From Mucilaginibacter sp. (lineage in GTDB: Bacteria > Bacteroidota > Bacteroidia > Sphingobacteriales > Sphingobacteriaceae), in the NCBI RefSeq assembly GCF_028288105.1, contig NZ_JAQBOI010000033.1, positions 1-42,500 of the forward strand: DNA of 42,500 bases. Reading direction: 5' to 3'. The notes under the pieces were generated by a model, which searched no databases, had not been told where the DNA came from, and was given only the letters and a program-made list of their open reading frames with translations. How positions within the stretch are numbered: the first letter of the stretch is position 1; each line of letters starts with the position of its first letter. A program made the translations under genes and the position numbers. Shown here one piece after another: positions 1,128-26,768 of this stretch.

Positions 1128-1170
1128 CTAATTTAAGCCGGTGCGATTGTTTAAAAAATGACTACCGTCA
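1128..1170 (-). promoter_or_regulatory. Fnr-like box and -7 element upstream of the 80-aa FixH-like gene
   Basis: A perfect palindrome TGACtaccGTCA lies at 1159-1170. Reading on the minus strand, TAAATTAG (1135-1128; one mismatch to TAnnTTTG) is centred 33 bp downstream of the palindrome centre, the class II-like spacing seen at four other sites here. The box centre is 55.5 bp from the ATG at 1109. Confidence 0.6.
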
Positions 1171-1253
1171 TATTCGGCTGATTTGCGCATTAAATAAGCT
1201 CAGTTTAAAAATGATCGTGCCCTGTAACTGGAGAGTTTTCTTACGGCTATAGA

Positions 1254-1991
1254 TCAGCGATTCCCACCCTTGTTTTGCCATTGATAATAGTAACGTTTGA
1301 GTTTGATCCGCAGCACATCGTAGACCAGCGTATAGAGTAGGACGGCGACCGGCGCCAGGAAGGCATGAAAGCCCAGGGAACGAAAAATATAAGCGCCACC
1401 GAGCGCGCCGCACATGAAAAAAAAGATAATAGCCAGGCGAAGCTTGATGCGCGATCTCAACAGTGGGTGGTCGTTGCGTGTTTTTTGTAGTAACTGTGCC
1501 AATTCTATACCCAGATCGGTAAATGTGCCGGTTAAATGAGTAGTACGTACAACGGAACCGGATACCAGGGACACCAACGCATTTTGAATACCCATCGCGA
1601 AAAGCAGGCTGCCTGCAAACAATTCCTTGCCCGCCAGGCTGCCATTATAGCGATGACCAAGTAAGGCGACCGCCAGTAAGATCGCGATTTCCGTGCCCAC
1701 CGGGATCACATAGGAATATTGCTGATTGCGACCGATACGGGAGACAAGCAGGCTCGAAGTAAACGCGCCAGCGAGGAACAGGAGCATCCATAAAGCGACC
1801 ACCCGTGCCGTTGCCCAGTCCTGGAAAGCTATCCGCTCAGCAAACAAGGCTGCATGTCCGGTCACGTTGGTGGTCAATACGGCAAAGCCCAGGAAACCCG
1901 CCGCATTGACAAAGCCCGCGGTAAACCCCAGCAGTGAAGCTAGCTTTACGTTGTGTATATAGGTCCGTTTTGTTCCCTGGTGCAGAAGCAT
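1254..1991 (-). CDS. DUF1275 (YoaK-type) membrane protein
   Basis: The 245-aa product begins KLASLLGFTAGFVNAAGFLGF, followed by LTTNVTGHAALFAE, the conserved N-terminal signature of DUF1275/YoaK proteins (first helix GFVDA/GFVNA, then TGN/TGH). About six or seven hydrophobic segments follow, with a basic C-terminus (RIKLKRYYYQWQNKGGNR). Length is normal for the family. Members are inner-membrane proteins of unknown transport function, so no substrate is proposed. It stands alone on the minus strand between the small FixH-like gene and the phosphoketolase genes. No Fnr-like box was found in front of it. Confidence 0.85.
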   Translation of the reverse strand: MLLHQGTKRTYIHNVKLASLLGFTAGFVNAAGFLGFAVLTTNVTGHAALFAERIAFQDWATARVVALWMLLFLAGAFTSSLLVSRIGRNQQYSYVIPVGTEIAILLAVALLGHRYNGSLAGKELFAGSLLFAMGIQNALVSLVSGSVVRTTHLTGTFTDLGIELAQLLQKTRNDHPLLRSRIKLRLAIIFFFMCGALGGAYIFRSLGFHAFLAPVAVLLYTLVYDVLRIKLKRYYYQWQNKGGNR

Positions 1992-2150
1992 GATTTAAAT
2001 GATATTTGAAATTACCAATTGGTGTATGGGGGGCGGTTTACAAGCCGCCGGCATTTCCAGGAGGTATCCTGTATGGTTTGTACACGAAGTGCTGATCAGA
2101 CAGCATTTGAATTTCCTCCTTTTGGATGTTTGCATCTACAAGGTTGATAT

Positions 2151-2444
2151 TCAGGGCTTCGTAATGATCCATCCGGTATTGCAGCAGTTCGGGTAGTCCT
2201 TCTTTCCCACGCTTAATAAGCCGACCGATATGAGCCGTGCCCCGGCTTTCGCTTTCTCCATGGCTTGCCCTATATCAGTAAATAACCGGAATAGTGAGGC
2301 ATCGGGTTGCAGGCGTAGCGCCCCTGCGGGTTTGGGCCCGCAGGATTTAAAGTTATTAATACTGATCTCCTTAATTTCCGTATCATTATTATTAACGCGG
2401 TAATAGTGATGATAAAACTGCTTTTTTATTTGTTCCATTTCCAA
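2151..2444 (-). CDS. Doubtful 97-aa reading frame after phosphoketolase
   Basis: An ATG at 2444 overlaps the last 19 bases of the phosphoketolase gene, and the frame continues for 97 codons. Composition is protein-like (MEMEQIKKQFYHHYYRVNNND at the start), but I recognise no domain. The middle is crossed by a perfect 8-bp inverted repeat (2323-2330 with 2337-2344, loop TTTGGG), which is odd inside a gene and may instead be the operon's 3' hairpin. It could be a real small gene co-transcribed with xfp-ackA, or chance. Confidence 0.3.
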   Translation of the reverse strand: MEMEQIKKQFYHHYYRVNNNDTEIKEISINNFKSCGPKPAGALRLQPDASLFRLFTDIGQAMEKAKAGARLISVGLLSVGKKDYPNCCNTGWIITKP

Positions 2445-25625: not shown

Positions 25626-25636
25626 CCTTCACAGAT

Positions 25637-26695
25637 ATGGAAAAATTCATAAAAGAAATAGACGATATTAACCTGAGTTGTATAAGCCAGGCAGGTTACA
25701 AGAGTGCCTATATAGGCGAACTGCATCAATACAACCGTAATGGGTTGTTACTGGCAAACGGTTTTGTAGTTACAACTGCTGCTTACAAGAATTTTATATC
25801 ATATAATGATTTAGAAAATCAACTCATTATAACTTTAAATGACCTCAGACTTAATGATGCAATTGATTTTGAAAAAATAAGTTTAAGGGCAAAGCAAATG
25901 ATCATGCAATCGGAAATGCCGGCCGATCTTGGGATGGCAATTATTGGTGCTTACGACTATATGTGTGATTTGGCAGAACAACCTGTTTGCGTAAGCACAA
26001 GTTTTACATTTGAAATGCCATTTGATAACACAGATAAAACAATCGAAACTAATTTGAATGTACAGGGCCATTGCGCCTTGCTGTATGCTGTACGTAAGTG
26101 TTTTGCAAACCTTTTCAGTATATCGGCTTTACATCATATTGCTTTAAATAAAGTAGATATCGGGAGTTTGGATGTGGCCGTTTGTATTCAAAAAATGATA
26201 AGAGCAGATAAAGCATGTGCCGGTGCCGGGCTAACTACAGATTTGAGTTTTAAAGATGAAAATGTAATGCATATTACCGGAAGTTGGGGGCTTGGTAATA
26301 GAACTGTTGGCCTTGATAATGAAAATGACGAATACTGGATATTTAAGCCTTCGCTGGCAGGGAAAATGTCTTTGCTTGAAATGAAACTGGGTGCAAAAAC
26401 AAAAATGCTTATGGTTGCTAAGGAGGATGATTACAGCTTGCAAACAATTGAAACGAAAACACCTGGCGGCATTCAACATCGTTATGTGTTAAATTTAAAG
26501 GAAATTGAAGGCCTGGGAAAATGTGGTTTGCTGATAGAGCAGCATTTTAAAAAACCTATGCTTTTCCGATGGGCTAAAGATGGCTTAAATAATCAAATCT
26601 ATATTCTGTCTATACATCCGGAAGATACAAGGCCGAAACTCCCAATTAACGATTTATCTAAAACATCTGACTTTTACGGTGAGGTAGCTAAATGA
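25637..26695 (+). CDS. Orphan PEP-synthase N-terminal (ATP-grasp) domain protein, probably altered
   Basis: The 352-aa protein resembles only the first half of PEP synthase/pyruvate phosphate dikinase (full enzymes have about 800-900 aa). Landmarks: AGYKSAYIGELHQ...LLLANGFVVTTAAYKNF at the start; ETNLNVQGHCALLYAVRKCFANLFS around 140; VAVCIQKMIRADKACAGAGLTTDL around 185; GSWGLGNRTVG then DEYWIFKPSL around 215. The SSA-x-E-D block that normally precedes is replaced by CVSTSFTFEMPF, and the SG-V-x-F-T loop by AGAGLTT. The phosphohistidine and PEP/pyruvate barrel domains are absent, without a frameshift or following fragment. So it probably does not make PEP; a binding, regulatory or different kinase role is possible. 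Second gene of the L,D-transpeptidase operon. Confidence 0.75.
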   Translation: MEKFIKEIDDINLSCISQAGYKSAYIGELHQYNRNGLLLANGFVVTTAAYKNFISYNDLENQLIITLNDLRLNDAIDFEKISLRAKQMIMQSEMPADLGMAIIGAYDYMCDLAEQPVCVSTSFTFEMPFDNTDKTIETNLNVQGHCALLYAVRKCFANLFSISALHHIALNKVDIGSLDVAVCIQKMIRADKACAGAGLTTDLSFKDENVMHITGSWGLGNRTVGLDNENDEYWIFKPSLAGKMSLLEMKLGAKTKMLMVAKEDDYSLQTIETKTPGGIQHRYVLNLKEIEGLGKCGLLIEQHFKKPMLFRWAKDGLNNQIYILSIHPEDTRPKLPINDLSKTSDFYGEVAK

Positions 26696-26725
26696 TCAAG
26701 GTCAGGAAAAGAAAATGCTGTTATA

Positions 26726-26768
26726 TGATAACGGTCATTATTTAAATGGCGTGATACAAGCAAATTTG
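26726..26768 (+). promoter_or_regulatory. Fnr-like box and -7 element for the universal stress gene
   Basis: TGATaacgGTCA (26726-26737) is followed by CAAATTTG (26761-26768; one mismatch to TAnnTTTG), centres exactly 33 bp apart. Box centre 57.5 bp from ATG 26789. Confidence 0.6.

Follow-up and report, generated by a model that had tools for sequence, protein, structure and literature searches.

What does a rigid spacing between palindromic boxes and promoter elements signify, and which protein reads it? The question is raised by a contig of Mucilaginibacter sp. (NZ_JAQBOI010000033.1), in which TGAY-N4-RTCA palindromes precede ten transcription units, named here by coordinate and strand, with a gene content that includes cbb3 oxidase and oxygen-independent HemN. 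The window, by which we mean the whole contig of 42,500 bases, belongs to an assembly (G000) of 4.8 Mb in 333 contigs that is 88.5% complete. An earlier note on this DNA had described nine boxes, each 33 or 55 bp from a -7 element, and had taken the two distances for two classes of promoter under a single factor. Our analysis indicates instead that the two distances arise from a single tandem operator whose box centres stand 22 bp apart. The likely reader of this shared layout is the neighbouring response regulator, a fusion of receiver and Crp/Fnr domains (REC-Crp/Fnr, hereafter REC-Crp); a FixL-like haem kinase is predicted to phosphorylate it at low oxygen.

Exact TGAY-N4-RTCA boxes number 13 in the window, as against a mean of 1.6 and a maximum of 5 in 100 shuffles (first-order resamplings). 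Nine of these are the boxes noted earlier, and they do stand before the ten units; the remaining four start at 2566, 5574 and 9961, all intragenic, and at 26693. Every one of the ten -7 octamers named before lies exactly 33 or 55 bp from the centre of some box. Against YAnnTTTG, five are perfect (7929-, 26789+, 8048+, 16465+ and 20296-) and three have one mismatch (1109-, 22826+ and 10679+), while those of 24138+ (GACCTTTA) and 22609- (GATACTTG) are weak on their own because they have two mismatches each. Eight window boxes are coupled at 33 or 55 bp to a -7 element that departs from this consensus at no more than one position, and the best distance pair of the shuffles reaches a mean of 1.45 and a maximum of 3. 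The intragenic boxes (2566-2577, 5574-5585 and 9961-9972) have no such element at either distance. The extra perfect box at 26693-26704 (TGATCAAGGTCA) lies 33 bp, not 22 bp, upstream of the universal stress protein (Usp) box at 26726-26737.

The same distances recur in relatives. Within the window's own genome the signal is thin: the pattern TGAYNNNNRTCA-N10..40-TANNTTTG gave 11 matches versus six for its reversal, two of the 11 at 33-bp spacing and one of these two inside the window. A search of 201 genomes of the family for TGACNNNNGTCA followed at 18-48 bases by YANNTTTG returned at least 150 matches. Among the 150 matches listed, 63 had a spacing of 33 and 16 a spacing of 55; other spacings averaged 2.4, with the highest counts being 10 (32), 8 (34) and 7 each (56 and 57). 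In 80 named loci plus the window, we counted 52 promoters at 33 and 103 at 55, followed by 13 at 54, 11 at 56 and 0-6 at any other distance; the first open frame begins a median of 22 bp beyond the -7 element. Nearly half of the '55' promoters (46/103) sit before one gene family, the lactate-dehydrogenase-like gene. A weight matrix was built from 150 named-locus promoters, the training relatives including orthologues of window promoters; nine of the ten window promoters were recovered as the only matches above 6 bits, two of the nine with expectations of 0.03 and 0.10, and 24138+ was missed. Taken together, these counts confirm that the promoter geometry is real and conserved in relatives.

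The logos of the two promoter sets reveal what the distances have in common. In 92 non-redundant '55' promoters, a second, degenerate box of the form TGAY-N4-NTCAT appears at +22, and in 45 non-redundant '33' promoters a second box appears at -22. Scanning all offsets from -60 to +60 singled out +22 for the 103 '55' promoters (mean 7.0 of 8 core positions; runner-up 4.3) and -22 for the 52 '33' promoters (6.3 of 8; runner-up 4.4), and the 22-bp offset also leads in most groups when promoters are split by downstream gene. A partner with at least 6/8 positions is present in 81/92 '55' and 35/45 '33' promoters, at control offsets in 1.3-1.6%. Pairs of perfect boxes within 120 bp tell the same story: 26 of 97 are spaced 22 bp, and the next commonest spacing accounts for four pairs. 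The window partners score 8, 7, 6, 6, 6, 6, 6, 5, 4 and 3 of 8, so that seven of its ten promoters reach at least 6/8, a score found at 1.7% of control offsets. An A-tract and a T-tract border the distal box in the '55' set. Tandem pairs may also be common to divergent promoters, as in 32 cases spread over 25 of 81 sequences; in the window, the pair centred at 7970.5 and 7992.5 serves, within 7934-8029, both flanking operons, each with its -7 element 33 bp from the nearer box. Because the partner box stands at exactly 22 bp in both sets, the two-class reading is rejected; to judge from the alignments, the '33' and '55' sets are one tandem operator, differing mainly in which box is strong.

The positions relative to the transcription start can be estimated by analogy. 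The sigma-A -7 box of Flavobacterium psychrophilum spans -12 to -5 (PMC9723704), and if this position holds in Mucilaginibacter, the box centres would lie at -41.5 (8.5 added to the 33 bp that separate the centres of box and -7 element) and -63.5. The first value would agree with the class II position near -40 that had been assigned before. The second, assigned to class I near -62, falls 2 bp from the -61.5 given for Escherichia coli Crp (PMC5957442), and it comes with a partner box where class I has a single one.

The regulator gene itself lies in the window, between the lactate-dehydrogenase-like gene and the kinase gene (Table 1). Its product carries receiver, cNMP_binding and HTH_Crp_2 domains by Pfam, and its nearest named relatives are from Mucilaginibacter. 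Among 132 fetched copies, in which some genes are counted twice and that of the window is included, the receiver residues D24, D67 and K119 are invariant and E23 and T97 are kept in 131. The recognition helix reads ETVSR in 79 of the 80 named loci and thus follows the E..SR pattern, the signature of FNR. There is no N-terminal cysteine cluster in REC-Crp, which has Cys just at open reading frame (ORF) offsets 73 and 254. Two more Crp/Fnr proteins of the same genome, L166 and L180 (G000:C224 and G000:C16), do have clustered N-terminal cysteines, with recognition helices ETVFR (C224) and ETWFK (C16). A protein with a cNMP-binding domain and no helix-turn-helix match in Pfam is encoded at 35021-35602 (+).

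The kinase overlaps the regulator gene. The best PDB match of its PAS domain is FixL (E 1.3e-34), aligned over the PAS length, and its H62, the putative haem-binding residue, and R82, which we take to be FixL His200 and Arg220, are kept in 71/73 and 72/73 kinases of the named loci; H62 is likewise kept in 15/15 kinases beside a diverged regulator. A related kinase occurs in the fetched stretch at 106 of 132 loci, and 17 of the other 26 stretches are about 3 kb long. Of 81 sequences compared, 35 have the operator upstream of the kinase gene, the window being one of them. Since the kinase-regulator operon thus carries the promoter, it is likely autoregulated.

To identify the reader, we compared operator counts with gene content. 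The tandem pattern, searched with up to two mismatches and with complete counts per genome, gave 1123 matches in the 201 family genomes versus 36 for the reversed pattern. Genomes without REC-Crp carry a mean of 1.0 tandem operators and those with it 7.0; the mean rises from 1.0 where REC-Crp is absent at E 1e-60 (47 genomes) through 4.0 with a diverged form (74) to 9.8 with a close form (80), and the contrast is visible within genera g1, g5, g18 and g21. The REC-Crp effect is present with and without a C224-type Crp/Fnr (P 2e-6 and 8e-13, values that overstate independence because the genomes are related). Without REC-Crp, the C224 type has no effect on tandem counts (P 0.30): 14 genomes with it average 1.21 and 33 with neither 0.91, and the 81 with REC-Crp and no C224 average 5.16. 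C224-type proteins are accordingly not supported as box readers. Across 296 genomes sampled from the phylum, REC-Crp is present in 43, with a mean of 6.6 tandem operators; no REC-Crp was detected at E 1e-60 in any of the 223 genomes outside the class, and 206 of these, those without a close relative of P0004 (the Cys-bearing FNR of genome G464), average 0.3. Cut-offs were set by eye for REC-Crp (1e-60), for the C224 type (1e-50) and for P0004, at first 1e-57 inside the class and 1e-52 outside. Drawn from this co-occurrence, REC-Crp is the likely reader of the boxes.

Several observations weigh against this reading. The 80 named loci were picked for adjoining the regulator gene, and the relatedness of the genomes inflates the P values above. 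A clear partner is wanting in three of the window's ten promoters (3, 4 and 5 of 8) and in 11/92 and 10/45 promoters of relatives, and two of the window scores of 6 come from the same shared pair. Kinases beside REC-Crp in other families, 18 in all, retain the FixL signature only in part (H62 in 17, D63 in 8, Y65 in 9 and R82 in 14). Genomes without REC-Crp are indistinct in genera g4 and g15 and weakly distinct in g3 and g14. Conversely, 12 genomes of family f4 (G252, G286, G300, G304, G315, G326, G330, G349, G377, G393, G420 and G428) have a diverged REC-Crp (E 5e-80 to 2e-91) and just 0-2 tandem operators each; their operator may differ. Finally, tandem operators number 2-13 each (mean 7.2) in six class genomes that lack REC-Crp and encode a P0004 relative at E <1e-57, and G464, from another class and also without REC-Crp, has 19. 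Because these six and G464 carry it, the operator does not require REC-Crp. The earlier idea of a single factor thus gains a favoured candidate through co-occurrence, one that is neither proven nor exclusive; exclusive reading by REC-Crp is rejected, and in some other genomes the layout may be read by relatives of a Cys-bearing FNR.

The last of these observations bears on a rival account, which we consider unlikely, in which most of the reading falls to a free-standing FNR-type protein that senses oxygen itself, REC-Crp being only a co-resident or modulator. FNR-like proteins with clustered cysteines are found in G464, G308, G466, G345 and G023 (the genomes in which cysteines were inspected, not G275, G216 or G389), which have 7-19 tandem operators and no REC-Crp, and the own genome encodes C224 and C16. 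The cysteines of the G464 protein (L167) are spaced CX2CX8CX15C. A variable-gap search of seven REC-Crp-less genomes, with matches listed for five of them (G466 and G464 absent, G308 partial), points the same way: among the 150 matches listed, spacing 33 occurs 17 times, 34 occurs 13 and 32 nine times, with 11 at 55, 10 at 52 and a mean of 4.2 for the others. As the peak at 33 is flanked by 34 and 32, it is present but blunter. Against this account, the helices of C224 and C16 are not of the E..SR form, and tandem counts rise with REC-Crp in the absence of C224 and not the reverse. Nor does the P0004 kind predict the operator. Where P0004 relatives score E 1e-40 to 1e-52 (18 class genomes), the mean is 0.7 tandem operators. 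A relative at E <1e-56 is present in 11 genomes of other classes, and seven of these have no tandem match, G464 being the one with 19. Five class genomes with weaker relatives or none average 0.4. Adding G474, whose relative scores 6e-53, to the six class genomes above gives seven with a mean of 6.1; the 24 class genomes initially grouped as having neither regulator (the 18, G474 and the five) average 0.6. A P0004-kind FNR is therefore not supported as the general reader, its relatives often being without tandem operators. Across the sample, the operator grammar is broader than REC-Crp, and neither kind of regulator predicts the operator everywhere.

A second rival accepts the regulon and changes its input: the haem-PAS domain would bind nitric oxide or carbon monoxide, or the kinase would sense redox state. 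Haem-PAS domains can bind several gases. The PAS domain here aligns along FixL, keeping the His and Arg that we take to be His200 and Arg220, and the genes include cbb3 oxidase and the oxygen-independent HemN, which together make this input improbable. Two true promoter classes, class II near -40 and class I near -62 with one functional box each, would suit the three window promoters without a clear partner and the usually far greater strength of one box, and are rendered highly improbable by the 22-bp partner frequencies in relatives and a distal centre estimated at -63.5 rather than -61.5.

Table 1. Promoter features, regulatory genes and transcription units of the window.
Feature	Position	Strand	Remarks
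Distal strong box, lactate-dehydrogenase-like gene (20296-) promoter	20368..20379	-	48.5 bits in weight matrix
Proximal partner box TGACCACGCTCA, 20296- promoter	20346..20357	-	8/8 core positions
-7 element TAATTTTG, 20296- promoter	20315..20322	-	0 mismatches
Box common to two divergent promoters	7965..7976		distal for 8048+, proximal for 7929-
Second box of shared pair, CAATCGTCATCA on +, TGATGACGATTG on -	7987..7998		22 bp from first
-7 element TACTTTTG, 6160-7929 gene	7934..7941	-	
-7 element CAGTTTTG, heavy-metal-type P-ATPase gene	8022..8029	+	
ccoNO (cbb3 oxidase) promoter	distal box 10594..10605	+	partner 10616-10627 (6/8); -7 10651-10658
16465+ promoter	distal box 16380..16391	+	partner 16402-16413 (5/8); -7 16437-16444
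Kinase-regulator operon promoter	distal box 22695..22706	-	partner 22673-22684 (6/8); weak -7 22642-22649
22826+ promoter	proximal box 22767..22778	+	distal partner 22745-22756 GGACATAGCTCA (7/8); -7 22802-22809
24138+ promoter	proximal box 24075..24086	+	distal partner 24053-24064 TGGATTAAGTCA (6/8); weak -7 24110-24117; <6 bits in matrix
Usp gene 26789+ promoter	proximal box 26726..26737	+	-22 position 3/8; -7 26761-26768; 10.8 bits
1109- promoter	proximal box 1159..1170	-	weak partner 1181-1192 (4/8); -7 1128-1135; 11.9 bits
REC-Crp/Fnr response regulator, likely box reader	20377..21426	-	ORF open from 21468, probable start codon 15
Histidine kinase with FixL-type haem-PAS, overlapping regulator gene	21395..22609	-	PDB match, residues
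6160-7929 gene of unknown family, then acetate kinase, phosphoketolase	2426..7929	-	possibly one operon
Heavy-metal-type P-ATPase (copper by context), CcoNO, CcoP-like, CcoG-like, FixH, DsbD_2 genes	8048..16365	+	Pfam/NCBIfam
114-aa protein of no known kind, AdhP alcohol dehydrogenase	16465..17847	+	domain matches
HemN, lactate-dehydrogenase-like (2-hydroxyacid dehydrogenase) genes	17904..20317	-	
LOG-family protein, unknown protein, L,D-transpeptidase, PPDK_N-domain protein, universal stress protein	22826..27643	+	

The genes under these promoters, several of which serve respiration, haem or fermentation, bear out the claim of a shared regulon with low-oxygen content, in rigid geometry and conserved in relatives. 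Copper-specific ATPase models stayed below their cut-offs for the P-ATPase, as did D-lactate dehydrogenase models for the lactate-dehydrogenase-like gene. The phosphoketolase and acetate kinase genes (2426-5973, -) trail the boxed 6160-7929 gene by a gap of about 190 bp, and the three possibly form one operon; in relatives, separate tandem promoters serve two acetate kinase genes and one phosphoketolase gene. The start predicted from the -7 element of the 6160-7929 gene (7929-7941, -) coincides with its ATG, which would make the mRNA leaderless.

Recurrence was counted in 81 sequences, the downstream gene being at least 55% identical to the window gene; matrix matches above 12 bits numbered 364 in 1.55 Mb. 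The promoter is commonest upstream of the lactate-dehydrogenase-like gene (58 sequences) and is also present before ccoNO in 21, the 114-aa protein in 14, the 6160 gene in 12 and the LOG protein in seven. Counts are 1-3 each for the L,D-transpeptidase, AdhP, HemN, Usp, acetate kinase and phosphoketolase, and three for close relatives of the 24138+ gene; the promoter of the heavy-metal P-ATPase was found solely in the window. Distant relatives of Usp, AdhP, the L,D-transpeptidase and the 114-aa protein supply more cases. For these wider counts, the downstream gene was the first open frame with a minimum length of 60 or 70 codons, linked to a window gene at E 1e-8, which means that these four families hold distant paralogues; distant targets were missed because the loci had been chosen for adjoining the regulator. 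A protein resembling the pyridoxamine-oxidase family, by eye, follows the boxes in nine cases in relatives.

The closest known system is the FixL-FixJ-FixK2 cascade of Bradyrhizobium diazoefficiens, which likewise has a FixL-type haem-PAS kinase and a Crp/Fnr-type output. FixJ combines a receiver with a LuxR-like DNA-binding output. REC-Crp shares the receiver, with its phospho-acceptor Asp, Thr and Lys; in place of a FixJ-type output it has cNMP_binding and HTH_Crp_2, and unlike the cascade, which has a separate FixJ, the window joins receiver and Crp/Fnr domains in one protein. FNR is similar to REC-Crp in its cyclic nucleoside monophosphate (cNMP)-like fold, Crp-type helix-turn-helix, E..SR helix and TGAY-N4-RTCA core, and differs in lacking a receiver and possessing an N-terminal cysteine cluster. 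Belyaeva reportedly described, in 1998, tandem Crp or FNR promoters of E. coli with two dimers upstream of one promoter; here, by contrast, the 22-bp pairing is regular throughout the regulon in many genera, and one of the two boxes is usually weak.

For FixK2, PMC9104804 gives the box TTGA/C-N6-T/GCAA. Compared with the FixK box TTGA-N6-TCAA, the operator described here keeps the inner TGA-N6-TCA and does not conserve the outer T and A, and it differs from FixK2 targets in being a tandem pair set at a constant distance from the -7 element of Bacteroidota. Genes lowered in fixK2 mutants, as tabulated in PMC9104804, include those for phosphoketolase, acetate kinase, universal stress and pyridoxamine-oxidase-family proteins, and the first three kinds also occur in the window. 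Oxygen limitation in F. psychrophilum induces cbb3 oxidase and haem genes (PMC9723704), a response that resembles the present regulon in these genes and in an identical -7 element; the main text of that paper has no match for Crp, Fnr or palindrome. Among the matches listed in the open-access literature, judged by title or abstract opening, there was nothing on REC-Crp, a FixL pair or twin-box promoters in Bacteroidota, and no account of how such aerobic Bacteroidota switch on cbb3 oxidase and fermentation at low oxygen. The parts are of known kinds; their combination is new.

Starting from the geometry and its conservation, the weaker box, the sharing of pairs by divergent promoters, the domains of kinase and regulator and the association of operator with regulator, all legible in the DNA, we propose the following mechanism for reading by REC-Crp. 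Given boxes estimated at -41.5 and -63.5, the dimer on the proximal box would contact RNA polymerase in the manner of a class II activator. Bound to the same face two helical turns farther upstream, the distal dimer would assist the proximal one in binding or would contact the alpha subunits. The strong box would hold the complex, the other box being usually degenerate, and the 33 and 55 'classes' would be these two cases. The signal would enter through the receiver domain, not through a bound Fe-S cluster, and the FixJ and FixK of the rhizobial cascade would be merged into one protein.

The occurrence of the operator with and without REC-Crp invites a broader suggestion, which we offer tentatively and as the less probable side of the question: that one conserved low-oxygen grammar of the Bacteroidota, with boxes at -41.5 and -63.5, has been passed between a Cys-bearing FNR and a kinase-fed REC-Crp with the DNA code unchanged. 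A receiver supplied by a FixL-like haem kinase would then have taken the place of the oxygen-sensing module of FNR. For this group of organisms, the present analysis corrects a tempting two-class reading and supplies a defined promoter code that can be scanned for in any genome of the class, with the kinase-regulator pair as its likely reader. If the broader suggestion is true, the sensor of a global regulon would have been exchanged while its operator code was kept.

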